Below, piece by piece: positions 1-25,607 of a stretch of 36,771 nucleotides of DNA; within the stretch, counting starts at the first letter, position 1; every line of letters starts with the position of its first letter. Where the stretch lies: contig MNJR01000039.1 of the NCBI GenBank assembly GCA_001920415.1, positions 58,477 through 95,247 of the forward strand, given 5' to 3'. Made by a program: the position numbers and the translations under genes. The stretch is from Acidobacteria bacterium 13_1_20CM_3_53_8 (GTDB taxonomy: Bacteria > Acidobacteriota > Blastocatellia > Pyrinomonadales > Pyrinomonadaceae). The notes under the pieces are model-generated. The model had not been told where the DNA came from, searched no databases, and saw only the letters and a program-made list of their open reading frames with translations.

Positions 1-373
1 ACCTGCGTTTTTCAAAAGCGGTTCTTATCCCGAAAAGCTTTTGCAGACGCAACATGGCATCACACCGAAACTAAAAGCCATCGCGCACAATCGCCATCAA
101 GTCGTTTCCGGCTGGAACTTTGAGAAAGTCAATGTCAAAAACGGAAGAACAATTTGGGGAGAGCCGAAGCCGACACAAAGGCTCGTTCCATCGGGCGCGG
201 TTCTTTTCCTTGAACTCGATGGCGATGTAAATAAACGCAAAGAGTGGGTTGAAAAAACTTGGTTAAGTTGCGTCAGCGATGACGACCCGAATAATCAACA
301 AGACTTTCGCAAAGACGGGTTCGGTCTAGCCGTGCTTGGAGCATGGGACGGCAAACTTTTGGAGATGGGGTAA
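1..373 (+). CDS. cmr3: Cmr3, type III-B CRISPR RAMP subunit (partial, 3' end)
   Basis: The reading frame is open to base 2, so about 123 C-terminal residues are visible and the start lies outside the window. Seen: PAFFKSG at the edge, HQVVSGWNF, and GEPKPTQRLVPSGAVLF, which match the C-terminal pattern of Cmr3 (TPA-x-F-K, then V-S-G-W, then K-P-T-R-R-L-V-P-A-G). In the family, Cmr3 is a RAMP protein that pairs with Cmr2/Cas10 and helps hold the 5' handle of the crRNA. The stop is 5 nt before the likely cmr1 start, so the genes are co-transcribed. An internal TTG at 41 is not a credible start, because the homologous sequence continues upstream of it. Confidence 0.85.
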   Translation, partial: PAFFKSGSYPEKLLQTQHGITPKLKAIAHNRHQVVSGWNFEKVNVKNGRTIWGEPKPTQRLVPSGAVLFLELDGDVNKRKEWVEKTWLSCVSDDDPNNQQDFRKDGFGLAVLGAWDGKLLEMG

Positions 374-1342
374 AAGATATGGGAAGAAAAGTACCGACGG
401 TTACAGCACCTGATTCTATTACACCTAATTTGCAGGCCAAGCGAATCAAGGGGAAAGATGTCGCACTCATCCGACAAGCACGAGAGTATGAACTCATCAC
501 ACCGCTTTTCGGCGGCGGCACTGAAACTCAAAAGGCCGACCCTGTTAGCATCATCCGCGTTCCAAGCATTCGCGGACAACTACGCTTCTGGTGGCGGGCA
601 ATTCGCGGCGGGCCATTCGGCAGCGATTCTCTAGGTTTGCAAAGAATGAAAGAGGCTGAAGATAAGATTTTCGGCTCAGCCAGTATTGGCGACAAAGCGA
701 GCTCGTCTCAATTGCAGATTGATTTAACTATGGCAAATCGCGGAAAGGATTTATCTTTGGTGACTAATTATAAAGGCAAACAAGTTCACATATCTGACAT
801 TAGCTCTCCCTACGGCTACGCAGCATTCCCTTTGAGAGAAAAAAAGTTAGGCACCGTCGTTAATGTTGGCTTCTCTATCTCTCTTTCATATCCCGCAAGC
901 CTTACACCGGAAATTGAAGCGGCTTTGTGGGCTTGGGAGATGTTTGGCGGAATTGGCGGAAGAACAAGGCGCGGTTTCGGCTCTTTACAGCAAAAGAGCT
1001 ATAAACCAACTGTTGATAGTGTTCAAAAAGACATTGAAGGTGGTCTTACAAAACATCTTGCCGGAAACACTTTTCCGCCTAATGTTCCGCATCTCGTCAA
1101 CAATTCTACTTTGATTAAAATCACATCGCCCCACAACAATGTTCCTGACGTTTGGGAGTATCTGATTGGAGAGTTGAAGAAATTCAGGCAAGACCGCCCT
1201 TGGAATTCTACAAAAAATAAACCGAGTCGTAGTAATTGGCATGAGCCTGACGCAATAAGAAATGTGACAAGCTATGCTAAGTATCATCCGCCAAAATCTT
1301 CAAATGTTAATAAGTTTCCAAGAGCTGCTTTCGGATTGCCTA

Positions 1343-1350
1343 TAATTTTT
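1343..1350. repeat. Target site duplication, left copy (TAATTTTT)
   Basis: The eight bases TAATTTTT directly precede the left inverted repeat and are repeated at 4828-4835 directly after the right one. Keeping one copy restores the cmr1 frame. Confidence 0.95.
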
Positions 1351-1376
1351 GGTGATTATCTACTTGACGCGGGATA
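1351..1376 (+). repeat. Left terminal inverted repeat of the IS1595-family element
   Basis: A 26-bp sequence beginning GGTGATTATC and ending GCGGGATA. It is identical to the reverse complement of 4802-4827. It begins directly after the duplicated target bases 1343-1350 and supplies the premature TAG (1375-1377) of cmr1. Confidence 0.95.
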
Positions 1377-1391
1377 GGTAAGAAGAATAAT

Positions 1392-2390
1392 ATGCGGCGC
1401 ATGTCCTTACAAAACATGCCGCCGAAAACATCTCTTACCTTCGCGGAGCGTCACCCGCTTCTAGCTCGCTTCATTCTGAATAAGAAAGTGCTGGGAACAG
1501 GATTACTTGTATTGCTAACAAAGGCTTCGACGTTTTTCACGTTCGGAGAGAAGTTCATTGACAACTTACAGCGTATTCAATTTATCCAAGACAATACACC
1601 AAAGTTTATTGACTTCTTGCGGTATTTGTTTTCGCCTCGTGGCGCAGACGTATTACAGTTGATTGCGCTGACTGTTTTCGTTCTCGTTGTAGCCTATGCG
1701 GTAAACGCGAAAGCATCGGATGGTAGGCAGCCTAAAGAAAGGCTAATTAAAGCTCCTCACGCCGAACAACCAGCTATCAAAGAACCATCTCCCGACGAGA
1801 GACTACATGAACTTGAAGTGACTAGCAACAGGCGCATACAAGTTCTTGAAACACAACATAGGGAACAGGTCTCAAACTTTGAATCGGAAATTGCATCACT
1901 CAAAACTCAGTTAGAAGAACGTCAGGAACACAGTTTAGTATTTGAAGTTGAAGAAGGGTTTCATAATCACGTAAAAATTCGCGGCCAAGCTGAGAGTTGG
2001 GCTATCTCTTTTGACATCAAAATACGTTTTATAAACCGCGACATTTATTCAGATTCGGTACTAGACATAAAAGTGTTGCTCTTTAGAGATGAAAGTCATG
2101 TGGGTTTATCGGAAATCCCCTCGTTGACACCACCACAGTTATATCTAGATCAAGGTGAGGGCACAGAAAAAGTTAAGCCAAGTGGCTTAGAGATTCCATC
2201 GGGGCGCGCGACTGAACATTATATGCTACATGGTCATTTAGAAGTATCACGTGATGCTAGACTTGGCTGGGGGATGTTTTTGCGTGTGACTATGGAAACC
2301 GTAAGGCAAAGTTCAAATACCGTTGACTTAGCCATTGATTATGACCCCGCAATTAGACTCTCTGGTGGGTCTCTTGCTCTCAAAAGGTAG
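1392..2390 (+). CDS. Passenger membrane/coiled-coil protein of unknown function
   Basis: First gene of the element, 332 residues, starting 15 nt beyond the cmr1 stop. I do not recognise a family. Visible architecture: a hydrophobic stretch at about residues 33-50, a clearer membrane helix at about 87-105 (VLQLIALTVFVLVVAYAV), a Pro/Lys-rich linker, a predicted coiled coil at about 136-180 (LHELEVTSNRRIQVLETQ and following heptads), and a mixed beta-like C-terminal domain of about 150 residues. A purine-rich AGGTAAGAAGAA precedes ATG 1392; ATG 1401 is a possible alternative. It reads outward from the left end, on the strand opposite the transposase. A membrane-anchored dimer exposing its C-terminal domain is an inference from this layout only. 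Confidence 0.7.
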   Translation: MRRMSLQNMPPKTSLTFAERHPLLARFILNKKVLGTGLLVLLTKASTFFTFGEKFIDNLQRIQFIQDNTPKFIDFLRYLFSPRGADVLQLIALTVFVLVVAYAVNAKASDGRQPKERLIKAPHAEQPAIKEPSPDERLHELEVTSNRRIQVLETQHREQVSNFESEIASLKTQLEERQEHSLVFEVEEGFHNHVKIRGQAESWAISFDIKIRFINRDIYSDSVLDIKVLLFRDESHVGLSEIPSLTPPQLYLDQGEGTEKVKPSGLEIPSGRATEHYMLHGHLEVSRDARLGWGMFLRVTMETVRQSSNTVDLAIDYDPAIRLSGGSLALKR

Positions 2391-2711
2391 GTTCTTTGAA
2401 AAGAGCAAGGCCGCCGCGCAACATGACGTGGGAGGTCAACGCGACGGCCTCTCCTGCACAAGCCCTACCCACACTATCAGGCGTGCAGGTTATCGAGAGA
2501 CGCTTTCCCTCAAGAGCGTCTCCCGAACCGGAATTTAGTTAGTGCATTGAAAACATAGGGTGAAGTAAAAGCGTGTTATGATGCGCTTGTTCTAGTCTTT
2601 GAAAATTAGCGACGGCTACATGCGACGCCTCAAAACCTCAAGGGAGTAATGAGCATCGCCGTTCGAGATGAAAGGTTTTCACTCACGGCGAACAACTTGA
2701 GGGAATGCATA

Positions 2712-2731
2712 TTATTACCAGATGGTAATAA
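2712..2731. promoter_or_regulatory. Palindrome upstream of the XRE gene, candidate operator
   Basis: TTATTACC, a 4-nt gap (AGAT), then GGTAATAA: perfect 8-bp arms about 60 bp before the XRE regulator start. The dyad size fits an XRE-family repressor site, so autoregulation is a plausible inference. Confidence 0.4.
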
Positions 2732-2755
2732 AAGCAACCTAGTCGTGCCCCGTTT

Positions 2756-2775
2756 ACTAGGAGGTGACTCCTAGT
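2756..2775. promoter_or_regulatory. Palindrome overlapping the ribosome-binding region of the XRE gene
   Basis: ACTAGGAG, GTGA, CTCCTAGT: perfect 8-bp arms with a 4-nt loop. The left arm holds a strong AGGAGG-type Shine-Dalgarno sequence, so the hairpin could mask it in mRNA, or the dyad could be an operator. The half-site TAGGAG recurs in the palindrome at 4583-4597 before the transposase. Confidence 0.4.
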
Positions 2776-2791
2776 GGGAGGGAAGGGGCGC

Positions 2792-3052
2792 ATGAAGCAA
2801 GAGCGTTTAGCTGAGAAGCTAAAGCAAATCAGGCTTGCGTTGGGGTTGTCTCAAACAGAGATGCTTTACCGTTTGGGAGTGGAGGACTTGATTACTTATC
2901 ACCAGATTTCAAGATATGAAACGGGAACGCGAGAGCCACCGTTAAGGATTCTTTTGGAGTATGCGAGAGTGGCGGGAGTTTGTACGGATACGTTAATTGA
3001 TGACAAGAGGGACTTGCCCGCACGGTTGCCGGGCAAGGTGAAGCACAAATAA
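2792..3052 (+). CDS. XRE-family helix-turn-helix regulator (element passenger)
   Basis: 86 residues from ATG 2792; GGGAGGGAAGGGG lies just upstream, which favours it over GTG 2774. Nearly the whole protein is one HTH_3/Cro-C1 domain: KLKQIRLALGLSQTEML then HQISRYETGTREP, then the closing helix LRILLEYARVAGV. The basic tail ends PGKVKHK. DNA binding is clear from the motif; the target is not. It lies between the cargo gene and the transposase within the element, so regulation of the element's own promoters is the simplest role. The nearby TAGGAG-type palindromes are candidate sites. Confidence 0.85.
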   Translation: MKQERLAEKLKQIRLALGLSQTEMLYRLGVEDLITYHQISRYETGTREPPLRILLEYARVAGVCTDTLIDDKRDLPARLPGKVKHK

Positions 3053-3147
3053 AGGCGACGAGTTTTGGTAGAACTCAATCGCCTTCTGAACACTGAATAA
3101 GGGTTCGTTGCTGGTTTGAATCTTACATGATTAGGAGAAAGCCAGCA

Positions 3148-3444
3148 ATGAGCAATCCGATTTTTGAAATAATCACGCCGGAGCAGCACATAAGGATTTA
3201 CGCCAACGGAGTAGTCGAAGGCTGTGGCAAAGAAGGTCGCATTGTAAATCACATAGGGACAGCAATCAGACCGGAGTTATTCGCTTACTTTAGCAAGTCC
3301 CATGAGCCTGAGCCTTGTAACGTTCCATACGTTAATCCAAATCCTACTATCTTAGGGTCGTCAGGGTCGGGTACGTCACAAGGTATAGGCGAAAACGGCG
3401 CAAGAATATCAGCGCAAGAAGTGGCGGCTACTGGCGAAAAATAA
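3148..3444 (+). CDS. Hypothetical small protein of the element
   Basis: 98 residues from ATG 3148, preceded by TTAGGAGAAAGC; ATG 3127 is upstream of that ribosome-binding site and so less likely. The N-terminal part (FEIITPEQHIRIYANGVVEG) reads like a genuine folded protein. The last 40 residues are Gly/Ser-rich and are encoded opposite the gene at 3285-3614. No family recognised. Either the two genes truly converge and overlap by 160 bp, or one of the two tails is fortuitous. Confidence 0.5.
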   Translation: MSNPIFEIITPEQHIRIYANGVVEGCGKEGRIVNHIGTAIRPELFAYFSKSHEPEPCNVPYVNPNPTILGSSGSGTSQGIGENGARISAQEVAATGEK

Positions 3445-3614
3445 TAGCAGAGGGCGGCTGTGTTTTCGTCCTCGTATTCTGTCCCGCTGAATATGGCAAA
3501 GCCAGCAGGGCTGCCAAGTTGAACGTCTCGCACTTGTGCTGCCATTGCCATGTTGGCGGCAATTTTCACGGTTTCTGCTGATGGAAATGGAAGGGCTATT
3601 TTATACCAAGACAT
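3285..3614 (-). CDS. Hypothetical small protein following the transposase
   Basis: 109 residues. The start is well supported: AAAGGAGAAATC directly precedes the ATG on the minus strand. It begins 10 nt after the transposase stop, so the two are likely one transcript. The sequence (MSWYKIALPFPSAETVKIAA, then AALCYYFSPVAATSC) has no family I recognise. Its 3' half overlaps the convergent gene 3148-3444 by 160 bp. An accessory role in transposition cannot be judged from sequence. Confidence 0.55.
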   Translation of the reverse strand: MSWYKIALPFPSAETVKIAANMAMAAQVRDVQLGSPAGFAIFSGTEYEDENTAALCYYFSPVAATSCADILAPFSPIPCDVPDPDDPKIVGFGLTYGTLQGSGSWDLLK

Positions 3615-3624
3615 GATTTCTCCT

Positions 3625-4581
3625 TTATGCGGCCTCGTCCTTTATCAATTCCTTGTACTCAAGGTTTGACGAAGCGATGAGCCGAAGCAAAGTATCACGG
3701 AATAGATAAGGGTTGTTTCGATTGTTGAATCTAAACTCAAACTCGTCAAGGTAACGATCAAGATGCTTTACACTAACTTGATGATACGCGCCAACTATCG
3801 AACGCTTGAAGAGAGAGAACACGCCTTCGACGGTGTTCGTGTGAACGTCTCCGCGCACGTATTCATCTGCGCTATGATTGACAGTCTCATGCGTTGTGTC
3901 GCTATCTTCTATTCCGTTATAAGCAGGCCAGTCGTCAGTCATAATTCGTTTGGTATCTGGCGCGGTCTGTTCACGGATGAAGTTATGAAGAGTCTCGCGG
4001 TCTCGCGTCTTTTCAAGTTTGATGCGAACCGCTCCGTCACGTTGAATGATAGCCAGAGCCATTGCTTTGTTGACCGTGCCTCTGCCTTGAATCTTTCGCT
4101 CTCTGTCCTTTTTGTGCATGTTCTTTGCTTTGCCGCCTATGAATGTTTCATCAACTTCTACAATCTCATTCAGAAGCGATGTATCAGCATCCTTCACGGC
4201 TGCGCGGATTCTATGGCAGAGATACCACGCGGTTTTATATGCTACGTGAAGCGTGCGTTTGAGTTGATTAGCGGAGATACCTTTTCGAGATTCACAGATG
4301 AGATAAATAGCCGCGAACCATTTAGTCAAAGGAAGGTGCGAATCGTGAAAGATTGTTCCGGCAGTTACGGAGAATTTATAACCGCATGATTCACAATCAA
4401 ACTGGTTACGTTTGTACTCGCGCGACATCTTGTCACTCTGGCAACGCGGGCATTTTACGCCGTCCGGCCAGCGCAGTTTTTCAAGAGCGATGCGGCATTG
4501 TTCATCCGTTCCGAACTGCTCAAACAGTTTCATTAAATCCATCTCTTGTTTCGGTGCTTTGACTTTAGCTTTACGTGCCAT
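3625..4581 (-). CDS. IS1595-family (ISXO2-like) DDE transposase
   Basis: 318 residues, full length for the family. The N-terminal zinc ribbon has CPRC (about residues 44-47) and CESCG (about 63-67). The catalytic domain shows the first Asp in VDETFIGG, the second in MTDDWPAY, and a downstream HTNTVEGVFSLFKR with the acidic residue of the third motif. It reads from the right part of the element towards the left. The start has AGGAG on the minus strand, inside the palindrome 4583-4597 shared with the divergent small gene. No frameshift or missing motif is seen, so the protein is probably active. Confidence 0.95.
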   Translation of the reverse strand: MARKAKVKAPKQEMDLMKLFEQFGTDEQCRIALEKLRWPDGVKCPRCQSDKMSREYKRNQFDCESCGYKFSVTAGTIFHDSHLPLTKWFAAIYLICESRKGISANQLKRTLHVAYKTAWYLCHRIRAAVKDADTSLLNEIVEVDETFIGGKAKNMHKKDRERKIQGRGTVNKAMALAIIQRDGAVRIKLEKTRDRETLHNFIREQTAPDTKRIMTDDWPAYNGIEDSDTTHETVNHSADEYVRGDVHTNTVEGVFSLFKRSIVGAYHQVSVKHLDRYLDEFEFRFNNRNNPYLFRDTLLRLIASSNLEYKELIKDEAA

Positions 4582-4582
4582 G

Positions 4583-4597
4583 ATAGGAGTCTCCTAT
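4583..4597. promoter_or_regulatory. Bidirectional Shine-Dalgarno palindrome between divergent starts
   Basis: ATAGGAGTCTCCTAT is a perfect 15-bp palindrome. Read in either direction it supplies AGGAG a few nt before an ATG: the transposase (minus strand, ATG at 4581-4579) and the small gene (plus strand, ATG 4596). Only 14 bp separate the start codons, so promoters for each must lie inside the opposite gene. The shared half-site TAGGAG suggests it may also be an operator for the XRE protein. Confidence 0.6.
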
Positions 4598-4775
4598 GAC
4601 TGAGAAGAAAAAGAGTGAACCGTTGGATTTGAGCAAACAGAAACATCCGATTGATATGACATCGGATGAACTATTGGATTATACGATTGCGCCGGAGATT
4701 GCGGAGCGGTTAAGAGAGATAGCGCGGAGCAATGATGCTCCCGAAGATTGCGAACCGGATGGTGATAGCTCTTGA
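4596..4775 (+). CDS. Small acidic hypothetical protein of the element
   Basis: 59 residues from ATG 4596 to TGA 4775, with AGGAG 7 nt upstream. The composition looks like a real protein: a Lys-rich start (MTEKKKSEPLDL), then a helical segment containing ELLDYTIAPEIAERLREIAR, and an acidic tail. It is divergent from the transposase with a 14-bp gap and ends 26 bp before the right inverted repeat. No family recognised. It could be an antisense-arranged regulator of transposition, which is speculation. Confidence 0.5.
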   Translation: MTEKKKSEPLDLSKQKHPIDMTSDELLDYTIAPEIAERLREIARSNDAPEDCEPDGDSS

Positions 4776-4801
4776 ACACGAAAGCATGATAACATAAGGC
4801 T

Positions 4802-4827
4802 TATCCCGCGTCAAGTAGATAATCACC
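4802..4827 (-). repeat. Right terminal inverted repeat of the IS1595-family element
   Basis: The reverse complement is identical over 26 bp to 1351-1376. It is followed directly by the second copy of the target duplication, TAATTTTT (4828-4835). Confidence 0.95.
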
Positions 4828-5141
4828 TAATTTTTAAGTTTAGCCCTAACGATGTGCCCAATGGCGACCCGCAAGAAACGACGCTTGAAGGTAAAGATGA
4901 GAGTCAAAAACGAATGGCAAGCCCTTTGATATTGCGTCCATTGGCTTGCGCTAACAATCAAGCCGTTGGTCTTGCAGTTGTTTTGTCAGGAACGAGTTTG
5001 CCGCCTAGCGGAATTATCTTGAGCGATGCGCCCGGCAATCCGACTGTCCAAGCAGATTTAACGCCAACAGAAGCAAGCAGCATTACACCGCTTGGTGGCA
5101 ATGCTGATGTCTTGCAAGCTTTTTTAGGCAAACTAAAATAG
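4828..5141 (+). pseudogene. cmr1: Cmr1, 3' part, beyond the inserted element
   Basis: Starts with the second target duplication (4828-4835). From 4836 the frame continues that of 379-1350 once the element and one duplication copy are removed, adding 101 residues. It contains KRMASPLILRPLA, a typical Cmr1 C-terminal motif, followed by a Leu/Pro-rich tail ending FLGKLK. A GTG at 4854 could start a truncated peptide, but no good ribosome-binding site is seen. It ends 12 nt before cmr4. Transcription of cmr4-6 may now depend on read-through or on promoter activity from the element. Confidence 0.9.
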
Positions 5142-5153
5142 GAGTTTTCTATT

Positions 5154-6059
5154 ATGGAAAAGAGATTGATTTTTGTTCACGCACTTTCGCCTTTGCACGC
5201 AGGGACGGGGCAGGGCGTTGGGGTCATTGATTTACCGATAGCAAAAGAGAAAGCTACGGGCTTGCCTTATTTGCCCGGTTCGTCTCTGAAAGGGACGCTA
5301 CGCGATGAGTTCAATGGTGATCTGCAACGCGACAAAATTTTCGGACCCGAAAAAGATAACGCAAGCGATTACGCGGGCGCAATTCAGTTTACAGACCAAA
5401 CGCTTCTATTGTTGCCTGTGCGAAGTCTTGCGGGAACATTCGCTTGGGTGACTTCGCCTTACATCTTGCGAAGATTGAAGCGAGATGCGACGGATGCAGG
5501 CGCAAATGATTTGCCCGCAGACATCCCTAAGCCTAGCAGTGAAAGTCGTTGCGAGGTGCATTCCGAAGATAACGGCGTTGCTGTCACCAAGTTGATCGTC
5601 TCCGGCGTTGATAAAGTTTGCCTTGAAGACTTAGACCTTACGCCGACAGAATCAACGTTAGTGAAAGATTGGGCAGATTGGCTCAAGGGTAGAGTGTTTC
5701 CTGCGGGCAATCCCTGGCAAGAAATGTTGGGCGAAAGACTTTGTGTTGTGCATGACGACGTTCTCTCTTTCATTCTCAACACCGCAACGGAAATCACTGC
5801 GCGAGTGAAAATCCAAGACGATGCAAAGACAGTTGAAAGAGGCGGTTTGTGGTACGAAGAGGCTTTGCCGGCGGAATCAGTCTTGTTCGGCTTGGCTCTA
5901 AGTTTTCCTAATCCGAAAACGCAGATGACAGACACACAAATTTTTGATGCGATAAAACCGAAGCTTGAGAACGCTTTGCAATTCGGCGGCAAGGCTACTG
6001 TCGGGCGCGGCATCTGCCGCGTCAGCATAAGTAACAGCGCGGCACCAAACGGAGGATGA
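5154..6059 (+). CDS. cmr4: Cmr4, backbone and target-RNA nuclease subunit of the type III-B complex
   Basis: 301 residues, normal length. The N-terminal RAMP signature is clear: LSPLHAGTGQGVGVIDLPI, then PYLPGSSLKGTLRDEF. The Asp in VIDLPI is residue 26, the position of the catalytic Asp known from Pyrococcus furiosus Cmr4, so target RNA cleavage every 6 nt is likely preserved. The C-terminal GGKATVGRGICRVS is the usual glycine-rich loop. TAGGAG precedes ATG 5154. The stop overlaps the first ATG near cmr5 (ATGA at 6056-6059). Confidence 0.95.
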   Translation: MEKRLIFVHALSPLHAGTGQGVGVIDLPIAKEKATGLPYLPGSSLKGTLRDEFNGDLQRDKIFGPEKDNASDYAGAIQFTDQTLLLLPVRSLAGTFAWVTSPYILRRLKRDATDAGANDLPADIPKPSSESRCEVHSEDNGVAVTKLIVSGVDKVCLEDLDLTPTESTLVKDWADWLKGRVFPAGNPWQEMLGERLCVVHDDVLSFILNTATEITARVKIQDDAKTVERGGLWYEEALPAESVLFGLALSFPNPKTQMTDTQIFDAIKPKLENALQFGGKATVGRGICRVSISNSAAPNGG

Positions 6060-6064
6060 AAGTT

Positions 6065-6472
6065 ATGTTGACACGCGAACAAGAGTACGCAGCGACGATT
6101 TACGATCAAGTTGCACGCGAGATAGAACCGAAACTGCGTCCGGCGCAAAAGAAATACGGCTCGATGGCTCATAGGCTCCCCGTGTTGATTCGCGTTGCGG
6201 GGTTGGCTCAGGCTCTTCAATTCGTTGAATCACGCGGGAAGGACGAGCAGAAACTTTTACTTCAACATCTCGCCTTAACGCTAGGATTCACAAATGATGA
6301 AGGTGAGAATGCAATAAAAGCTAAAGCGAAGTTGCTAGATGAAAGTCGAACGTCGCATCTCGGGGCTTATATGCGTTTGACTCAGCAATCATTGGCGGCT
6401 CTCGAATGGTACAAGCGTTTTGCCCAATCAGTGTTGAAAGTTGAAGCAGGCGAGGAAAGCGATAACGATTAA
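6065..6472 (+). CDS. cmr5: Cmr5, small helical subunit of the type III-B complex
   Basis: 135 residues from ATG 6065; GGAGG at 6051-6055 is 9 nt upstream, good spacing. The ATG at 6056 abuts the GGAGG directly and would add only MKV. The mostly helical sequence (REQEYAATIYDQVAREIEPK, then KKYGSMAHRLPVLIRVAGLA and QHLALTLGF) matches Cmr5. In the complex Cmr5 stacks on Cmr4 as the second filament. It overlaps or abuts cmr4, and cmr6 follows 21 nt later. Confidence 0.93.
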   Translation: MLTREQEYAATIYDQVAREIEPKLRPAQKKYGSMAHRLPVLIRVAGLAQALQFVESRGKDEQKLLLQHLALTLGFTNDEGENAIKAKAKLLDESRTSHLGAYMRLTQQSLAALEWYKRFAQSVLKVEAGEESDND

Positions 6473-6493
6473 AGAGATTGCAGGAGATTAGAC

Positions 6494-7549
6494 ATGAGTT
6501 CAAGACGCGATGCTCTCGCAACTATAAATCTAAACATCAGCGAACGACCTAACGCGGGTTTGTGGTTGTATAAATATATGGAAGATGCAACGGATACTAA
6601 AAGTCGTGCTGATTTTGCGCGTCAGGTTGCAGAGATAGAAGAGCCTTCCGCCAATAAACCCGACGAGATACCAGTTTACAAAAGGTTCTATGATTCTTGG
6701 GAAAAGACTCTAAAAGAAGAGCTCAACGCAGATTGTCGCAAGGCTAAAGTTCAAAATCGCATGGTCGTCGGGTTGGGCGCGGATGGTGTTCTTGAAACGA
6801 GTGTTGCGCTGCATAGAACTTACGGCGTGCCTTATATTCCAGGCAGCGCTTTGAAAGGCTTGACGGCGGCGTTTGCCCGTCATTACTGCGGCGTTGATTG
6901 GCAGCAGGATTCTACAAAGGGCTATTACAAAATCGTGTTCGGAACAAATGATGAAGCTGGTTATGTGACCTTCTTCGACGCGCTTTACGTTCCAAATTCA
7001 GGACATGATAAAAAGGCTCTTCACTTCGACATCATGACCGTTCATCACGAATCTTACTATCAAGGGAAAAAAGATGATAAGGGGCATCATCTTCCGCCAG
7101 CAGATTGGGACGACCCGAATCCTATTCCTTTCATTTCTACAACGGGCGAATACTTAATCGCCTTAGCCGCGCCCGAAGGTTGTGAAGCGTGGCTTAACGC
7201 CGCGCATATAATTCTCGAAGAGGCATTGAAATGCGAAGGAATCGGTGCCAAAACTTCGAGCGGCTACGGGCGAATGGAAATCATAGACAAGCCCGCGATA
7301 CTCGTTGATGAAGACAAATCATTTGCCGACGCATTGATTGAAAAAATCAAAAGCATTCCCGATAGTAAACTTCCGGGCGAGCTGGGAGAATATGCGAACA
7401 AATTAATTAACTCGACAATCAAAGCCCAACACAAAAAGCGCGTTGCTGAATTGATTGTTACGCGAACAACGAAGTTAGGAAACAAGCAACAAAAGAGATT
7501 TGAAGAAAAAAGGTGGTTCGCACCGATTCAAATCATGTTGAAAAGTTAA
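6494..7549 (+). CDS. cmr6: Cmr6, RAMP subunit of the type III-B complex
   Basis: 351 residues. Typical Cmr6 features: ARNxx-like N-terminal helix, then MVVGLGADGVLETSVALHRT, YGVPYIPGSALKGLTAAFAR, VTFFDALYVP, HHESYYQG and the glycine-rich KTSSGYGRME. It caps the crRNA 3'-side of the filament together with Cmr1. GGAGATTAGAC precedes ATG 6494. It is the last structural cmr gene; 224 bp of non-coding sequence follow. It appears intact, in contrast with cmr1. Confidence 0.95.
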   Translation: MSSRRDALATINLNISERPNAGLWLYKYMEDATDTKSRADFARQVAEIEEPSANKPDEIPVYKRFYDSWEKTLKEELNADCRKAKVQNRMVVGLGADGVLETSVALHRTYGVPYIPGSALKGLTAAFARHYCGVDWQQDSTKGYYKIVFGTNDEAGYVTFFDALYVPNSGHDKKALHFDIMTVHHESYYQGKKDDKGHHLPPADWDDPNPIPFISTTGEYLIALAAPEGCEAWLNAAHIILEEALKCEGIGAKTSSGYGRMEIIDKPAILVDEDKSFADALIEKIKSIPDSKLPGELGEYANKLINSTIKAQHKKRVAELIVTRTTKLGNKQQKRFEEKRWFAPIQIMLKS

Positions 7550-7773
7550 ATGCTACAAGCCTTTACATAACCATAGGTGAATATCTAATCTTTGGCTTAA
7601 GGTGTATATGAAAATCGTTTCCTTTCTTGGAATAGGTGATTATTAGCCAGTCACCTGCTGTGGATTTCGGACACAGCCACGCCCTAGTAATAAAATCTTG
7701 AATGCAGTTGAAGAATTACCGAGGCAATTAGAAACGATGGTTTTTGAAGAACAGGGCAAAATGCGAGGGTGAA
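7550..7773. other. Gap after cmr6 with two hairpins and IS1595-end-like sequences
   Basis: No gene seen. GGTGATTATTAGCCAGTCACC (about 7635-7655) and GCTGTG with CACAGC (about 7657-7677) are small inverted repeats. GGTGAATATCTAATC near 7576 and GGTGATTAT near 7635 resemble the first bases of the IS1595 end at 1351. These may be chance or remnants of a related insertion. Confidence 0.3.
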
Positions 7774-8430
7774 ATGAGCTATGTTCGATTAAACATCATA
7801 GACCAGACCCAAACGATCAATGGTGAGGTTCACGGTTATTTTGGCGATGCGTTGATGGCGGCGTTGACGGCGGAGCCGGAGACGGTTGAGGAGTTGGCGC
7901 TGGCGTTGGCTAGGTTTATTAAGCCGCAGGGCGATTCGTCGCCGTTTGCCGGGTTTCGGGAGGGGGAGGATTTTGAGCCTTACGATGCGGGCGTGGTGGT
8001 GATTGATCTGGGGGCGAGGGTTGTGGCTGCGGATTCGAGTTATTCGCAAGCGTCGGCGGAAGGCAGTTTTCGTGTGCAGAGTGAGTTTGCGGAAGAGGAT
8101 GTTTTTGTTTCTTATCGTCTGTCTGATGATTGGCTGTTCGTTTATTCGATTCCTGAATGCGAAGGCGTTTGTGAGCGAAGACGTGAGGAGCGTTTGGTGG
8201 TCGAACTGTTTGATGCGCGCGAGGTTTTGTATGGCAGAGCGTTGTTGGAATTCATCGCGCGGGAATGTTTTGAGGCGCGAGGTTCAGATGATGAAGAGTT
8301 GTTCACGAAGATTCACGCGAAGTGGTTGATAACGGCGAGAGAAGACCTGCGGGGCAGGACGCCGCGTGAGGTTTTGTTGGAGGAGCGGGAGTTCATTGAT
8401 TTCGATTTACATTCGAGAGCGTTGCAATAG
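7774..8430 (+). CDS. Hypothetical protein, 5' part of an amber-split gene
   Basis: 218 residues from ATG 7774; GAGGG 5 nt upstream favours it over TTG 7744. No family recognised. Acidic, with the block KWLITAREDLRGRTPREVLL near the C-terminus. It ends RALQ-TAG at 8428-8430. The frame stays open beyond the stop into the next gene (8452-8976), so the pair looks like one 400-codon gene split by a single TAG. A TGG-to-TAG change is plausible, since Trp would give RALQWS. Its place between cmr6 and the ring nuclease does not by itself prove a CRISPR role. Confidence 0.6.
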   Translation: MSYVRLNIIDQTQTINGEVHGYFGDALMAALTAEPETVEELALALARFIKPQGDSSPFAGFREGEDFEPYDAGVVVIDLGARVVAADSSYSQASAEGSFRVQSEFAEEDVFVSYRLSDDWLFVYSIPECEGVCERRREERLVVELFDAREVLYGRALLEFIARECFEARGSDDEELFTKIHAKWLITAREDLRGRTPREVLLEEREFIDFDLHSRALQ

Positions 8431-8976: not shown

Positions 8977-9072
8977 AGAAGGCATTGATCTTATACAAAG
9001 CTGACTCACTTTTCTTTTGGCAAGCTTGCCAAGCAATAAGCTCCGCGATAGTTGTGCTATCAAAGCTCTGCT

Positions 9073-9417
9073 ATGGTCGCTACGAAACTGACATTACTCA
9101 ACACCAGCATTCTCACAAGCTTTGGAACTTACACATATGAGCCTCTCTCGCTTGAGGAAGCGCGTGCGCTTGTCGGCGAATTTCAGCGCGAGGGGAAAAG
9201 CATTCAATCGGCCATAGGACATCAGACGACGGCAGATTTGCTTTCGGCTTTGCTCGGAATTGCCGTCGCCGTCAATCGCACCGAATACCAACAAACCGTT
9301 GATGATGCTGCTTTGATTTTCAAACTCAAAGGTCGCCCGCCGGAAGGAAAAGTTTTAAGCCGTGAAGAGTTGGAAGAGATGGGGTATGAGTTTGGTTTAC
9401 TGACTCGAAAATCTTGA
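9073..9417 (+). CDS. crn2: Ring nuclease of the DUF1874 / AcrIII-1 / Crn2 family
   Basis: 114 residues from ATG 9073; family members begin at this point, so TTG 9052 is not used. Seen: LLNTSILTSFGTYTYEPLSL, SAIGHQTTADLLSALLGI and GRPPEGKVLSREELEEMGYE. These match the DUF1874 family. The residues equivalent to SIRV1 gp29 His47, Arg85 and Glu88 are His50, Arg88 and Glu91, a constant offset of 3. The family degrades cyclic tetra-adenylate, the type III second messenger: viral versions are anti-CRISPRs, chromosomal ones in type III loci are called Crn2. Being 42 nt before a CARF gene it is best read as Crn2, an off-switch. A captured viral acr gene is the alternative. Confidence 0.9.
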   Translation: MVATKLTLLNTSILTSFGTYTYEPLSLEEARALVGEFQREGKSIQSAIGHQTTADLLSALLGIAVAVNRTEYQQTVDDAALIFKLKGRPPEGKVLSREELEEMGYEFGLLTRKS

Positions 9418-9459: not shown

Positions 9460-10437
9460 ATGCCCGAACGTGCAGATATTATTGATACACTAAGACGCTT
9501 TTTGGATGTCAATAGAAACCGGACAGGCAAATCAATTATTTTGTTTCTTCTGGGGATCATCTGTTTGGGTTGGATTGTGAGCGCCCTTTACGGCCTTTTT
9601 GATATTTTGAGCAGAGGTGTTTTCGGCTTGCTGGGCGCAAACAAACTGCTTGCTGATTGGAAGTGGTCTTTGGGAGTTGCGTTTTTGAATCTTGCTTTTT
9701 CGCTTATCGCTTTTTCAGGAATATATTGGCTGATGAAACGACATTTGAAACCCAACTCAATTCAAACGAAAACGATTTTGTTCGAGACACCATCGCCGCA
9801 TAACGGTCTGATATTTTTGTTGGGTCCGTACAAGCACCGCGATCAAAGCAGATATGGGGCGTTTAATACAATCTATCTTGACGATGCGGATACGAGAGAG
9901 CAGCTTTTGAAGTCTAATTGGGGGCCGTTAGTTGTTGCCGTTCAACATCACGCCCAATCTTCAACTCTCAAACATTGCTGGTTGATCTGCACACAAGGCC
10001 AAGCGGGGTCTGCTTTGCAATTTGAAAAGGCTGAAGAAGTGATAAAACACTTTGCGGGCAAAAAAGTGAAGTGCCACAAACGAGAGGTTGCGAGCATGAA
10101 TGATGTGGGCGAAGTGGCAAAGGTCGTAAATAAAATTTATGAGAGCGCGCCTTTGGGAGAAAACTTGATGCCGGAACAGATCATTGCAGATTTTACAGGC
10201 GGGACCGCCGCCATGAGCGGAGGGTTGATAATTGCTACCTTATTGAAAGATCGTCATGTGCAGTATTTTAGCCAAGACCCTGATAAACCTATTTTCAAAG
10301 AAGACGGACAAGCCTTCACGCCGCAGGAGATCGCAGAGACAAACGCGCTGATAACAGTCGTCATTTCCACTTCGCTGCAACCCGCAGAAATCGCCGACGC
10401 TGATAACGAAGATAATCTTGTAAAGATGGAAATTTGA
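9460..10437 (+). CDS. CARF-domain protein with two N-terminal membrane helices (candidate cA effector)
   Basis: 325 residues. Two hydrophobic helices at about 25-47 (SIILFLLGIICLGWIVSALY) and 70-91 (SLGVAFLNLAFSLIAFSGIY), joined by a short loop, precede a cytosolic domain from about 105 to the end. That domain has Rossmann/CARF features: a first strand GLIFLLGP (116-123), CWLICTQG (173-180), and DFTGGTAAMSGG (244-255), the usual CARF ligand loop. No nuclease motif follows. In Cam1, a membrane-CARF effector of type III systems, one helix precedes CARF and cA4 binding depolarises the membrane; two helices here differ from that. Preceded by AAGGATAAGG; the next gene starts 10 nt later. Function is inferred. 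Confidence 0.85.
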   Translation: MPERADIIDTLRRFLDVNRNRTGKSIILFLLGIICLGWIVSALYGLFDILSRGVFGLLGANKLLADWKWSLGVAFLNLAFSLIAFSGIYWLMKRHLKPNSIQTKTILFETPSPHNGLIFLLGPYKHRDQSRYGAFNTIYLDDADTREQLLKSNWGPLVVAVQHHAQSSTLKHCWLICTQGQAGSALQFEKAEEVIKHFAGKKVKCHKREVASMNDVGEVAKVVNKIYESAPLGENLMPEQIIADFTGGTAAMSGGLIIATLLKDRHVQYFSQDPDKPIFKEDGQAFTPQEIAETNALITVVISTSLQPAEIADADNEDNLVKMEI

Positions 10438-11820: not shown

Positions 11821-12284
11821 GTGAGAATGCATGCCGCGATGAAAGCGGATTGAAACGGTGCCGGAGCTGCTGCAGGACGAGGCGCTACGGGGTGAGAATG
11901 AATGCCGCGTTGAAAGCGGATTGAAACTTATCCATGAGCGTGCCGCCATAATGTCGCGCGGCGTGAGAACGGATGCCGCGACTAAAGCGGATTGAAACAG
12001 GAGTTGGCCTACCCTCCAAGTTGGGGTCACGCGTGAGAATGAATGCCGCGCTCAAAGCGGATTGAAACTCATTGCGCCTTACCTGCCTTTGCCGAAAGAT
12101 TTGTGAGAATGAACGCCGCGTCTAAAGCGGATTGAAACTCCTCCGTGCCGAACTCAATGAGTTCCAATGGTTGACGTGAGAATGAACGCCGCGTCTAAAG
12201 CGGATTGAAACGCTAGAACCTAGCGCGCCAAATCATTTGGGAAGTCGTGTGAGAATGAATGCCGCGATGAAAGCGGATTGAAAC
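11821..12284 (+). CRISPR. CRISPR array, seven 36-bp repeats, six spacers
   Basis: Repeats at 11821-11856, 11892-11927, 11963-11998, 12033-12068, 12103-12138, 12176-12211 and 12249-12284. Spacers are 35, 35, 34, 34, 37 and 37 bp. The repeat starts GTGAGAATGAATGCCGCG (consensus) and ends AAAGCGGATTGAAAC, with three variable bases between. CCGC and GCGG form a short stem around a 7-nt loop; the ATTGAAAC end gives the 8-nt 5' handle typical of type III and I crRNAs. The leader is therefore to the left, next to the Cmr operon. Only repeats 5 and 6 are identical. No further repeat follows 12284. No cas1, cas2 or cas6 is in the window. Confidence 0.97.
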
Positions 12285-12943: not shown

Positions 12944-14371
12944 ATGGACGAACCTGCGAGTTATTTCCTGAGCCTTTTGCTGGATGAGACCACGCACGCC
13001 GAGACAGTATCGTTCGGAAGCGCAATCTGGAAGCTAGCGGCTGTGCTGCTGCTCGTCTGCGCCAACGGCTTCTTCGTCTGCTCGGAGTTTGCGCTCGTCA
13101 CTGTCCGCCGCCCACGCCTTGAGGCGCGAGCCGAAGCTGGCAGCAAGGCGGCACGAGCCGCACTGCGACTGCTGAGCGAGCCTACGGTCTTCATCTCCGC
13201 CACACAGCTAGGCGTAACACTCGCCTCGCTCGCTTTGGGTTGGATAGGCGAGCCGACCGTTGCAGCGCTGCTTCTGCCACTCGCCAACCGAATCGCAGCT
13301 TCCGGCACAGCCAACTACGTGGCGCACGGCGCGGCCATAGCAATCGCGTTCATAGCAATCACATTTCTTCATATTGTGCTAGGCGAATTGATGCCGAAGA
13401 TGGCTGCGCTGGAGCGCGCAGAGCAGCTAGCGCTCATAGCCGCGCCACCGCTTGAACTGTTCGCCAAAACTTTTCGCGCGCCTATATGGGTCTTCAACAA
13501 GACCGGGACGAGTCTGGGTCATCTGCTTGGTCTGAAATCCTCGCTCGAACATACAGCGGTTTACACACAGGCAGAGTTGCAACAGCTTGTTGACATCTCC
13601 GTAGAAAGTGGTCATCTGGGGCATGAAGAGCGGCGATTGATTAATCGCATCTTTCAATTTTCAGATACTCTCGTTCGTGAGGCTATGGTTCCGCGCACGC
13701 AGATAGCTGCAATCTCTGACGATTGCACGCTCGAACAGATTGCAAAAGCTTTCCAGCAACACGGCTACTCGCGTCTGCCCGTCTATCACGGCTCGCTGGA
13801 TAACGCAGTGGGCTTCATACATAGCAAGGACGTGATGCCGTATCTTTTGAAGCCCGAAAAATTCCGGCTCGAACACGTGCTGCAATCGCCGCTCTACGTT
13901 GTTGACACTGCGCGTTTGGAGGACGTGCTCAAGCAGATGCAGAAGGCCAAAGCGCATTTCGGCTTCGTCGTTGACGAGCACGGCGGCACCGAAGGCATCA
14001 TCACGCTCGAAGATTTATTGGAAGAGATTGTCGGCGACATCTCCGACGAGCACGACGAAGAGGTGAACGAGCAGATAAGCGAAGAGCGCGATGGAAGTTT
14101 CGTGTTAGACGGCGGACTTGCTGTGCGCGACCTCAATCGCCGCTTGAATCTCTCGCTTCCAGAATCCGAGGCTTACACGACCGTCGCTGGCTTCCTCATG
14201 AACGAAGCTGGGCGTGTGCTTCAGCCCGGCGAGGTCGTTAGCTATGACGGCCTTCTCTTTCACATAGAGCGCGTTGACCGCCGACGCATAGCCCGCGTTC
14301 GCCTTGAACGCCCAGAAGAGGAAGAACACGCCGAAGACGAAACCCCCACCAACAGCGCGGCAGCAAGTTAA
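12944..14371 (+). CDS. CNNM/CorC-type membrane transporter (hemolysin-like, HlyC/CorC family)
   Basis: 475 residues. Domain order is standard: N-terminal DUF21/CNNM membrane domain (about 25-215; ANGFFVCSEFALVTVRRPRL, ATQLGVTLASLALGWIGEPT), paired CBS domains (about 225-345; MVPRTQIAAI, HGYSRLPVYHGSLDNAVGFI, HFGFVVDEHGGTEGIITLED), and a C-terminal CorC_HlyC domain (VLDGGLAVRDLNRRL and following). The family is linked to Mg2+/Co2+ efflux or homeostasis; older hemolysin names are not supported here. The stop codon overlaps the first bases of the heptad palindrome at 14370. Confidence 0.93.
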   Translation: MDEPASYFLSLLLDETTHAETVSFGSAIWKLAAVLLLVCANGFFVCSEFALVTVRRPRLEARAEAGSKAARAALRLLSEPTVFISATQLGVTLASLALGWIGEPTVAALLLPLANRIAASGTANYVAHGAAIAIAFIAITFLHIVLGELMPKMAALERAEQLALIAAPPLELFAKTFRAPIWVFNKTGTSLGHLLGLKSSLEHTAVYTQAELQQLVDISVESGHLGHEERRLINRIFQFSDTLVREAMVPRTQIAAISDDCTLEQIAKAFQQHGYSRLPVYHGSLDNAVGFIHSKDVMPYLLKPEKFRLEHVLQSPLYVVDTARLEDVLKQMQKAKAHFGFVVDEHGGTEGIITLEDLLEEIVGDISDEHDEEVNEQISEERDGSFVLDGGLAVRDLNRRLNLSLPESEAYTTVAGFLMNEAGRVLQPGEVVSYDGLLFHIERVDRRRIARVRLERPEEEEHAEDETPTNSAAAS

Positions 14372-14518
14372 GGCAAAAGTAAAAAGGTAAAAGGCAAAAG
14401 GGATAAGGACGAAATCAATGCTATTACTTCTTCTCATTCCTAAATCTGTAAAAGCGGTTTCCTCCTAACTTTTTACTTTTACCTTTTGCCTTTCCTTTGC
14501 CTTTTTCCTTTTATCTTT
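14370..14518. repeat. Heptad-armed palindrome, copy upstream of enolase
   Basis: Left arm AAGGCAAAAGTAAAAAGGTA and onward, a central unique segment of about 70 bp, right arm with TTTTTAC/CTTTTGCC units. Arms are tandem 7-bp units (AAAAGGT, AAAAGGC, AAAAGTA). Bases 14370-14473 are repeated perfectly in inverted orientation at 15929-16032, on the other side of enolase. Confidence 0.9.
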
Positions 14519-14560
14519 TCTTTTGGTAAAGTTGCGCGTTAAATTCCTGAAATTATTTGA

Positions 14561-16054
<1,494 letters not shown>

Positions 16055-16081
16055 TAAACTTCTTATTCCGGGAGATTCAAC

Positions 16082-16558
16082 TTGGCCTACGAATTACATC
16101 GCGGCGAATATTTAATCAGCACAGAGCCTGCGCGCCTTGACATAGAATTCATTCACAACTATCTGAGCACACAGACCTACTGGGCCACAGGCAGACCGCT
16201 CAATGTTGTGAAGCGTTCAATCGAAAATTCGCTCCCCTTCGGGCTTTATCATGAGGAGAAGCAGATTGGCTTCGGGCGTGTCGTGACAGACTACGCTACG
16301 TTCGCGTGGATAGCGGACGTGTTCGTGCTTGACGAATATCGCGGTCAGGGTTTGGGGAAATGGCTGATGGAGGCTATGGTCTCTCATCCAGACCTTCAAG
16401 GCTTTCGTCGCTGGGTTCTTGCCACGAAAGACGCGCATGGTCTTTACCACCGATTCGGATTCATGGAATTGAAGCGGCCAGAGCGATGGATGGAGCGGCA
16501 CGACCCGAACACACAGGAAAGACCGGACTACTGGAAAGATGATGAGCAGGCGCGCTGA
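16082..16558 (+). CDS. GNAT-family N-acetyltransferase
   Basis: 158 residues from TTG 16082, preceded by CGGGAG. The GNAT fold is visible: IGFGRVVTDYATFAWIADVF, then the acetyl-CoA loop DEYRGQGLGKWLMEAM (the Q/R-x-x-G-x-G/A motif as RGQGLG), then HGLYHRFGFMEL near the end. It transfers an acetyl group from acetyl-CoA to an unknown amine; the substrate cannot be told from the sequence. The following zinc-ribbon gene starts 23 nt later, so they are probably co-transcribed. Confidence 0.9.
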   Translation: MAYELHRGEYLISTEPARLDIEFIHNYLSTQTYWATGRPLNVVKRSIENSLPFGLYHEEKQIGFGRVVTDYATFAWIADVFVLDEYRGQGLGKWLMEAMVSHPDLQGFRRWVLATKDAHGLYHRFGFMELKRPERWMERHDPNTQERPDYWKDDEQAR

Positions 16559-16581
16559 GTGAAATTAAGTGGAGCAAACTT

Positions 16582-16806
16582 ATGTTCTTTTTCTTCATCA
16601 TCGGCACACACTTTTTCACATGGGGTTCGGAGCAGACGCCGCGCGAGATGCGCTGCGGCAAGTGTGGGACGGTCGCTCATTTCACCTTGAAGAAAGGGAT
16701 GCGTTTCATCACGCTCTTCTTCATCATTCCTATCATCCCCATCAGCGGCGTGAAAGAATTGGCGCAGTGCCCGACTTGCGGAACGCGCTACCAGATGACA
16801 GCATAA
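16582..16806 (+). CDS. Small membrane-associated zinc-ribbon protein
   Basis: 74 residues from ATG 16582. Seen: an aromatic start MFFFFIIGTHFFTWG, a first knuckle CGKCG (about residues 25-29), a hydrophobic segment FITLFFIIPIIPIS (about 42-55), and a second knuckle CPTCG (about 63-67). The layout matches small zinc-ribbon proteins in which two CxxC knuckles flank a membrane hairpin. Function unknown. Its stop lies just before a CTGAAAA-type palindrome. Confidence 0.8.
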   Translation: MFFFFIIGTHFFTWGSEQTPREMRCGKCGTVAHFTLKKGMRFITLFFIIPIIPISGVKELAQCPTCGTRYQMTA

Positions 16807-16887
16807 AACAGTTTTTAGTTTTCAGTTTTCAGAACGAAGGGAACCGGCTTTTAACTGAAAACTGAAAACTAAAAACTGAAAACTGTT
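16807..16887. repeat. Heptad-armed palindrome (CTGAAAA type) before gpmI
   Basis: Left arm 16807-16832 (TTTTCAG/TTTTTAG units), right arm 16855-16887 (CTGAAAA/CTAAAAA units). The right arm has one extra 7-bp unit. The loop contains GGGAACCGGCTTTTAA, similar to the GAAACCGCTTTTA core of the AAAAGGC-type copies. Confidence 0.9.
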
Positions 16888-16907
16888 CTTAAGGGGTAGA
16901 AAATATT

Positions 16908-18458
16908 TTGACTAACAAGAAGGTGCCGCTCGCGCTCATCATTATTGACGGCTGGGGCTACTCTACGGAGCGCGAAGGCAATGCCATAGCGCTCGCCGCG
17001 AAACCTTACTACGATGAACTTTTGGAAAAGTACCCGCACACGCTTCTAGAAGCGTCTGGCACGCGCGTAGGACTTCCCGACAGGATAATGGGCAATTCCG
17101 AAGTCGGCCATCTAAACATAGGCTCTGGTAGAGTGATTCGCATGGACGTGTCGCGCATTGATCACGCCATAGAGACGGGCGAGTTTTTCAGAAATGAAGC
17201 GCTCGTTAAAGCTATGGACGGCGCGAAAGAGCGCGGCACACAGCTTCACCTTATGGGCTTGGTCTCGGATGGTCAGGTTCACTCTTCGCAGGAACATCTT
17301 TACGCGCTGCTGCGCATGGCGAAAGAACGTGGCCTCAGGCGCGTTTACGTTCACTGCTTTCTGGACGGGCGCGACACGCCGCCCATGTCCGCTTACGGCT
17401 ACGTCGAAGCTCTGCAAACGCAGACGAGCCACATAGGCTGCGGTCGTATAGCTACGGTCATCGGTCGCTACTACGCAATGGATAGAGACAAGCGCTGGGA
17501 GCGAACCGAGCGCGCTTACAAACTTTTAATTAATGCCGAAGGCGAGCGAGCGATTGATCCTGTTGAAGCTATCAAAAAATCTTACGAGCGAGGCATCACG
17601 GACGAGTTCGTAGAGCCGATTGTCATCGAACGCGAAGACGGTAAGCCTGTAGCCACGATTCAAGAAGGCGACGCTGTCATCTTCTTCAATTTCCGTCCAG
17701 ACCGCGCACGCCAGATAACGCGCTCTCTGGCCGTCCCGGACTTCGACGCCTTCCCTACGCCGCAGAGACCCAAGATTGATTTCGTCTGCTTCACACGGTA
17801 CGACAATACTTTCCCTCTCGCCATTGCATTCCCGCCTAAGGAGCACAAAAATGTTCTGGCCGAAGTCTGGGGCGCTATCTGCGTGAAAAATTTCCGCCTA
17901 GCCGAAACCGAAAAGTACGCGCACGTCACATATTTTTTCAACGGCGGCGTAGAGAAAGAGTATCCGTGCGAGAACAGACTGCTCGTGCCGTCGCCTAAGA
18001 TTGCGACCTATGATCTTGAGCCTGAGATGTCCGCTTTCAAAGTAACGAACCAGATGTTGAAGGCTATTGACGAAGGCGAGACGGATGTATTCATAATCAA
18101 CTTCGCCAACCCGGACATGGTCGGGCACACGGGCAAGCTAGACAAAACAATCGAAGCGTGCCAGTACGTTGACACCTGTCTGGGCTGGATAGCGAAAGGA
18201 ATACGTTCTCATAAAGGCATCACGCTCATCACAGCCGATCATGGCAACGCCGAGCAGATGATTGACCGCACAACGGGGCAGCCGCACACGGCGCATACGA
18301 CCAACCCTGTGCCCTTTCATTTGATTGATGAAGCATCACGTGGAATAACTTTGCGCGAAGGCGGCGCGCTCGAAGACATAGCGCCAACGATTTTAGGAAT
18401 TCTAGGCATAGAACAGCCCGCCGAGATGACTGGGCGAGATTTGCGAAGTCAAAAGTAA
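16908..18458 (+). CDS. gpmI: 2,3-bisphosphoglycerate-independent phosphoglycerate mutase
   Basis: 516 residues from TTG 16908; AAGGGG lies about 11 nt upstream. Interconverts 3- and 2-phosphoglycerate in the cytosol using two Mn2+. Seen: [10 protein letters not shown] with the first metal Asp14, [15 protein letters not shown] with the phospho-Ser64, [53 protein letters not shown], and [12 protein letters not shown]. All catalytic blocks are present and length is normal. The last codons (SQK-stop) lie in the first heptad of the palindrome at 18447. It forms a small glycolytic neighbourhood with eno. Confidence 0.97.
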
Positions 18459-18580
18459 AAAGGTAAAAGTAAAAAGGCAAAAGTTAAGACAAAGCATTCA
18501 ACTCTGATTTTTAATCTTTAATTCACGCCTGCAAGGCGTGTCCACACTTTTGCCTTTTACCTTTTGACTTTTGACTTCTT
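18447..18580. repeat. Heptad-armed palindrome after gpmI
   Basis: Left arm AGTCAAAAGTAAAAAGGTAA and following 7-bp units; right arm 18546-18578 with TTTTGCC/TTTTACC/TTTTGAC units. The centre differs from other copies and includes its own short hairpin (CACGCCTGCAAGGCGTG, about 18523-18540). It overlaps the last codons and stop of gpmI. Confidence 0.85.
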
Positions 18581-18599
18581 CTTTTTTTATGGAGGAATG

Positions 18600-18713
18600 A
18601 TGACTGAAGCAGAAGAGAAAGAGATTAGAGCAGTTGTACAGAAAGAGCTTCTGGGTTTAATCAACGCTCGAAGGGCTGGCGAATATGATTCGCAGGCGGC
18701 AGGTGGCGCTTGA
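18600..18713 (+). CDS. Possible small protein, 37 residues
   Basis: ATG 18600 (or the adjacent ATG 18597) follows a strong GGAGG at 18591-18595 and reads to TGA 18713. The peptide starts MTEAEEKEIRAVVQKELLGL, an amphipathic acidic helix, and ends in a short Gly/Ala tail. No family recognised. It could be the N-terminal remnant of a longer gene. The strong ribosome-binding site is the main support. Confidence 0.4.
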   Translation: MTEAEEKEIRAVVQKELLGLINARRAGEYDSQAAGGA

Positions 18714-18786
18714 GCATGAGGGCGAATGATTCGTCGCGCTCTCTACTCGAAACATGATGCCTACTTTATTCGTTATCTAACTTGCC

Positions 18787-19812: not shown

Positions 19813-19845
19813 TGCGGCGCGGTCTATGGGGCTAACCTGTTAAGA

Positions 19846-25605: not shown

Positions 25606-25607
25606 AG

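Follow-up and report, generated by a model that had tools for sequence, protein, structure and literature searches.

The cmr1 gene of a type III-B CRISPR locus in Acidobacteria bacterium 13_1_20CM_3_53_8 is split by a transposable element of the IS1595 family. We analysed a stretch of 36,771 nucleotides (contig MNJR01000039.1, positions 58,477 to 95,247; hereafter the window) and conclude that the split very probably stems from a young, ordinary insertion carrying passenger genes, probably leaving no working Cmr1 and weakening immunity through the Cmr complex. One of the passengers, a regulator gene of the XRE type, follows a structured leader that recurs in related genomes. The insertion is defined by the following features (E, expectation value; aa, amino acids).

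379..1350, plus strand: 5' piece of cmr1, codons 1-324 (TIGR01894, E 1.5e-16; RAMPs PF03787, E 9.3e-23)
1343..1350: left copy of the 8-bp target duplication TAATTTTT (from the sequence)
1351..1376, plus strand: left terminal inverted repeat, 26 bp (from the sequence)
1351..4827: IS1595-family element proper, 3,477 bp (from its ends, transposase profile and a copy search)
3625..4581, minus strand: IS1595 transposase gene, 318 aa (NF033547, E 1e-65; PF12762, E 1.1e-41; PF12760, E 2.7e-13)
4802..4827, minus strand: right terminal inverted repeat, 26 bp (from the sequence)
4828..4835: right copy of the duplication TAATTTTT (from the sequence)
4836..5141, plus strand: 3' piece of cmr1, last 101 codons plus stop (from the joined frame and relatives)

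As it stands, the 5' frame of cmr1 continues into the element, where it meets a stop at 1377. Joining 1350 to 4836 by script gives a continuous frame of 425 codons from the ATG at 379, in agreement with a preliminary description of this DNA, which had reported a split gene with a joined frame of about 425 codons; from the first in-frame ATG (343) the frame has 438 codons including the stop. The full-length gene is not continuous, being broken at 1350/4836. The motif KRMASPLILRPLA, previously placed at the end of the joined frame, falls within the C-terminal quarter, with about 60 residues still to follow. The 5' piece matches the Cmr1 profile TIGR01894, the joined protein matches Cmr1 by sequence, and the RAMP fold was recognised on an intact orthologue (L028) only.

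The inverted repeats are perfect over exactly 26 bp (a repeat finder gives 29 nt at 97%), and TAATTTTT flanks the element on each side, which confirms both the repeats and the duplication as first reported. The element had been given as 1343-4835; its location was correct, but that span takes in both 8-bp duplications, and the element proper covers 1351-4827. The assignment to the IS1595 family also holds: the profile matches predict an ISXO2/IS1595-type DDE transposase with a zinc ribbon, and terminal inverted repeats and an 8-bp target duplication, as in the family, are both present. The transposase contains the blocks DETFIG, TDDWP and HTNTVE, which resemble the catalytic pattern given for ISApl4 (PMC12561309). 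Perfect repeats of 26 bp and identical flanking 8-mers around an IS1595 transposase are no chance pattern. Transposition of a cargo-bearing IS1595-family element into an A/T-rich site within cmr1 would account for the arrangement, of which the ends, the duplication, the transposase and the split frame are all seen.

The insertion appears fairly recent, since its ends and duplication are perfect and the 3' frame is undamaged. The young look of the element would also suit a polymorphic insertion, with an intact cmr1 kept in part of the population and one form shown by the assembly. Nothing seen contradicts this idea, and the assembly is a draft (155 contigs), but the inserted form alone was assembled, with clean junctions, and we regard a mixed population as unlikely. 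The same perfect ends and duplication had suggested a reversible switch, in which precise excision of the element restores the cmr1 frame and, with it, immunity. Frame restoration, however, follows from any clean, fresh insertion, no excised form was seen, and the genome holds a single full-length copy of the element. Precise excision is rare for such elements. In the small part of the literature on IS1595-family excision that was consulted, no switch of this kind was met. As perfect ends are its sole support, we rejected the reversible switch as scarcely credible.

The joined Cmr1 was searched in 195 genomes, of which 25 matched, the window's own included, and a scan of named genomes gave three loci. 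We aligned 15 relatives, namely the top protein of each of the 12 other genomes that scored best and the three named-genome loci, leaving out weaker matches. In all 15, cmr1 is uninterrupted and shows no gap at codon 324, which directly follows a conserved GLPI block; the joined protein thereby passes the comparison across position 324 that had been proposed as a check. The relatives are distant (29-44% identity in the best tblastn segment), and the empty site was seen in such distant relatives only. When the two pieces were searched apart, they abutted exactly in L028, and in 12 of the 15 relatives both pieces were followed by cmr4, as in the window.

For the structure of the missing part, the intact L028 orthologue was folded with 11 others as alignment A4 (mean predicted local distance difference test score, pLDDT, 76.9; predicted template modelling score 0.80). 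The model matches Cmr1 structures up to its last residue, with Z 20.6, a root-mean-square deviation (rmsd) of 3.5 and 281 aligned residues against 9l7c_A; Z 20.5, rmsd 3.4 and 252 aligned against 4l6u_A; and Z 20.1, rmsd 4.2 and 279 aligned against 4w8x. Foldseek also matched it to 4w8x (E 8.7e-13; TM-score 0.49 by query), and the sequence profile of the C-terminal part gave weak matches to solved Cmr1 chains. In the model, the insertion point would fall between residues 325 and 326, and past it lie five strands and two helices, with pLDDT below 70 in several blocks there.

The leftover N-terminal product would consist of 324 residues and a few foreign ones, without the last 101 residues. To judge from the orthologue, where they are seen, these 101 residues should contribute five strands to the second half of the fold; with them lost, the cell probably has no functional Cmr1. 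Any Cmr complex still expressed should then be poor at capturing target RNA. A split but working protein, with both pieces translated and assembled in the complex, would escape this consequence. The 3' piece is open, shares its frame with the final part of the element and includes a GTG (4854), and the break falls between conserved blocks and not in a domain known to need continuity. We nevertheless consider it very unlikely that a split Cmr1 works, as no obvious translation signal was seen for the 3' piece, the break passes through the second fold in the orthologue model and all 15 relatives are uninterrupted.

As to the extent of the loss, a review reports that interference by a Cmr1-deficient type III complex is decreased, not abolished (PMC7694759). 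Since that report concerns another organism, we infer by analogy that immunity via the Cmr complex is weakened, perhaps strongly, rather than cleanly off. Of the knock-out of immunity first proposed, a probable weakening stands; a knock-out is too strong a term, given the decreased interference reported in PMC7694759 and the presence of a type III-D system in the same genome. The view that full-length Cmr1 is probably missing stands as well: searching the genome for RAMPs gave seven places, of which three belong to the window locus and four lie on a short contig with III-D profiles, and no second cmr1 was among them (genome 95.9% complete). Three observations weigh against a loss of Cmr1 by insertion. 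At that completeness a second cmr1 could be missing from the assembly, the open 3' piece with its GTG would permit the split but working protein just discussed, and L037, L038 and L039, among the 15 relatives, show a match to the 5' piece alone if each piece is searched separately.

Besides the transposase gene, the element contains the following reading frames. Passenger genes are known in IS1595-family elements.

1392..2390, plus strand: passenger open reading frame (ORF), 332 aa, without assigned function (Pfam and NCBIfam matches weak, below cut-off)
2774..3052, plus strand: XRE-type helix-turn-helix (HTH) passenger gene, 92 aa (PF13560, E 8.6e-08; PF01381, E 1.1e-07)
3127..3444, plus strand: ORF, 105 aa, may not be a gene (no family above cut-off)
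3285-3614, opposite strand to the 105-aa ORF: ORF, 109 aa, may not be a gene (no family above cut-off)
4596..4775, plus strand: small ORF, divergently oriented to the transposase gene (59 aa scanned; no family match)

None of the 332-, 105-, 109- and 59-aa ORFs reached a curated cut-off in any library against which it was scanned, and the 332-aa ORF was present in one of 162 genomes of the class, its own. Scans of 1300-5200 for promoters and terminators found 8 and 6, against shuffle means of 5.6 and 4.4, and were not informative. Between the divergent transposase gene and 59-aa ORF we also observed a near-palindrome, ATAGGAGTCTCCTAT (4583-4597), which could supply a Shine-Dalgarno sequence to both.

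The genome contains one full-length copy of the element and IS1595-type transposase domains at four places, on contigs C14, C25 (the window's contig), C31 and C5. The element on C14 (L018 4556-6474) is related, its transposase sharing 73% DNA identity with that of the window element over about 1 kb and its ends being nearly the same (0 and 1 mismatches in 18). Its passenger differs (a 228-aa ORF with weak matches below cut-off), and no identical 8-mer was found in its flanks. Across the class, the window element was matched at E <= 1e-20 in 12 of 162 genomes, its own included; outside its own genome the matches are partial, covering the transposase, or the leader and XRE gene. A related transposase occurs in 461 plasmid records, each below 60% identity.

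The XRE passenger contains an XRE-type HTH domain, with PF13560 and PF01381 both above cut-off; its best NCBIfam match, RstR (E 1.3e-08), is far below the cut-off of that family. A conserved stretch before the gene (about 2401-2780) recurs in related genomes and at three other places in its own genome, and includes the following features.

2585..2783, plus strand: structured leader of the XRE gene (match to model R1)
2714..2729: palindrome ATTACCAGATGGTAAT, the proposed private operator (unique in the genome; covariation)
2756..2775, plus strand: hairpin over the Shine-Dalgarno sequence, reaching the GTG start at 2774 (consensus structure)

We aligned 14 leader copies (alignment A2; L022, which has no leader, was omitted), derived a consensus structure and built the model R1 from it. 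R1 matched five places in the window's own genome, one of them weakly. In an even draw from the phylum it was found in 3 of 247 genomes, the own genome included, and in the host's family it was found in 28 of 119 genomes, at 100 places and up to 13 per genome.

The structure was tested on held-out copies, comprising 54 R1 matches at 53 loci, drawn from 86 places not used to build R1, of which 32, for the most part weaker, were set aside. In these copies 94.0% of cells pair, as against 83.6 in shuffled alignments, 142 cells are changed on both sides (37.5 shuffled, 29 to 42 slid) and the covariation score is 0.397 (0.197 shuffled), none of 500 shuffles being as high in any of the three measures; in the case of further pair types, 12 of the 500 shuffles reached the observed value. 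The held-out alignment was fitted to R1, which favours pairing, and the shuffles ignore relatedness. An XRE gene follows the leader in 53 of the 54 copies, the exception being L156, and in most copies the start codon lies within the 3' arm of the Shine-Dalgarno hairpin.

No Rfam 15 family matched within 2585-2783 at its gathering score (two sub-threshold matches lie elsewhere in 1300-5200), and among ten viral contigs with a related HTH protein the leader gave one partial match at chance level (8.5 bits). Literature listings on XRE leaders or structured RNA in bacteria of this kind contained nothing recognised as relevant, and the family is apparently undescribed. There was no IS1595 transposase beside the leader in the stretches examined at 67 loci; therefore, the leader in the window is the only copy seen as transposon cargo. 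As a separate observation, a gene with a REC domain accompanies the leader in the stretches examined at 37 of the 67 loci (for example L122, L125, L144 and L160), one of which, L159, has it far from the leader; those near leaders encode single-domain response regulators and are mostly divergent. No such gene was found in the window at 1-8000.

Two readings of the third leader helix, which contains the palindrome, were weighed. Helices 1, 2 and 4 contain G-U cells as RNA helices do (39/319, 14/212 and 95/472). The core of helix 3 has 9 such cells among 269, with 18 further cells mismatched, and its letters change freely, as those of a DNA palindrome would. Because it does contain G-U cells and mismatches it may still be a pure RNA hairpin, but its letters follow the recognition residues of the XRE protein, which is why we prefer a DNA operator. 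Across 53 of the 54 copies, palindrome distance correlates (r 0.376) with the distance of five residues around the recognition helix. Given the C-terminal and leader distances, the partial r is 0.364, with none of 999 permutations as high; the C-terminal part of the protein shows no such relation (partial r 0.034; 139 of 999 permutations). The five residues were picked after the sequences had been viewed and the permutation ignores the tree, so the association is suggestive and not proof. The pattern ATTACCN4GGTAAT occurs once in the genome, at 2714-2729, which fits autoregulation. The covariation suggests that each XRE copy is autoregulated by putative binding to a private operator of its own.

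We lean slightly towards a wider reading, in which the element mobilises a member of an undescribed multi-copy family, each member combining a small XRE repressor, a conserved leader with an RNA hairpin over the start codon and Shine-Dalgarno sequence, and a palindromic operator of its own that co-evolves with the recognition helix. The members would form mutually insulated, self-repressing switches, up to a dozen per genome, one of which is now cargo. This switch perhaps serves to control the element's own passengers.

Around the split gene, the locus has the composition of a type III-B system, with cas10/cmr2 and cmr3 to cmr6. Upstream on the same scaffold lie cas6, cas10/cmr2 with a GGDD motif (TIGR02577, E 1.2e-64) and a predicted cmr3. 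The latter is readable only as two parts around a stretch of N; its C-terminal part was matched beside cmr1 in 11 of the 15 relatives. The genes downstream of cmr1 are as follows.

5154..7549, plus strand: cmr4, cmr5 and cmr6 (TIGR02580, E 1.2e-71; TIGR01881, E 1.2e-09; TIGR01898, E 3.7e-40)
9052..9417, plus strand: csx16 (PDLC01147, E 6.2e-25; PF08960, E 2.7e-25)
9460..10437, plus strand: CARF membrane protein gene (PDLC01168 CARF_2M, E 3.2e-34)
11821..12284, plus strand: CRISPR array, seven repeats (repeat search)

The profiles of cmr4, cmr5 and cmr6 were all matched, so these genes do remain, as first noted. They are followed by two ORFs that reach no family's cut-off, Csx16, the CARF membrane protein, a SWIM-domain protein and the CRISPR array. 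The preliminary description had also listed ring nuclease and CARF genes; profiles identify csx16 and the CARF gene, and Csx16 is of the ring-nuclease type.

CRISPR repeats in the genome fall into three clusters (window 11821-12284; G000:C25:52606-54136; G000:C3:31994-32537), with 22 repeats matching the pattern; the loop trinucleotide is variable (ATG, TTG, ACT, CTC, TCT, CTG) and the stem constant. The genome has one cas1, on another contig. The III-D profiles on the short contig are Cas10d, Cas5, Cas7 and Csx19, and the system there (L017, G000:C107; a contig of 8,410 bases) shows RAMP proteins that are large fusions (899 and 596 aa) beside Csx19. At several places elsewhere in the window (14367-32400), many gene boundaries have intergenic runs of purine-rich repeats resembling heptamers, for example AAAAGGCAAAAGGT, and of their complement.

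Mobile elements in parts of CRISPR-Cas systems are already known, and the insertion in cmr1 is ordinary in kind; what it offers is a natural type III-B complex without the C-terminus of Cmr1, a defence system damaged by a mobile element. The leader with private operators is the more novel observation and, if true, would matter more than the split cmr1. Paralogous repressors with matching operators and a built-in translational hairpin would then be a natural stock of orthogonal switches, and a code from recognition helix to operator could be read from sequence.

Compared with type III-B Cmr1 of known structure (4w8x, 4l6u, 9l7c), the orthologue model is alike over its whole folded length and the joined protein is alike by sequence, whereas the window gene is broken after codon 324. 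A literature search for cmr1 disrupted by insertion sequences, judged by titles and the start of abstracts, gave nothing on topic. The nearest cases, described in the review PMC4390879, are from Sulfolobales, where csa3 is broken by an integrated element and ISC1359 lies within a spacer; that review calls such interruption of CRISPR loci rare. In those cases and in the window a mobile element inactivates part of the CRISPR machinery; the window differs in the target, cmr1 of a type III-B complex, and in the element, which belongs to the IS1595 family and bears cargo. ISApl4 (IS1595 family, IS1016 subgroup), as described in PMC12561309, measures 712 bp, with 14-bp repeats and 8-bp A/T-rich duplications. 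On that description, it shares with the window element a DDE transposase, perfect terminal inverted repeats and the 8-bp A/T-rich duplication, and differs from it in that the window element is longer (3,477 bp) and has 26-bp repeats and several passenger ORFs. Finally, the XRE passenger resembles XRE/Cro-type autorepressors in pairing a small HTH protein with a palindrome that precedes the protein's gene. Unlike in those systems, the palindrome is part of a conserved, structured leader, which covers the Shine-Dalgarno sequence as well, and there are many paralogues, each with its own palindrome and often beside a divergent REC-domain gene.

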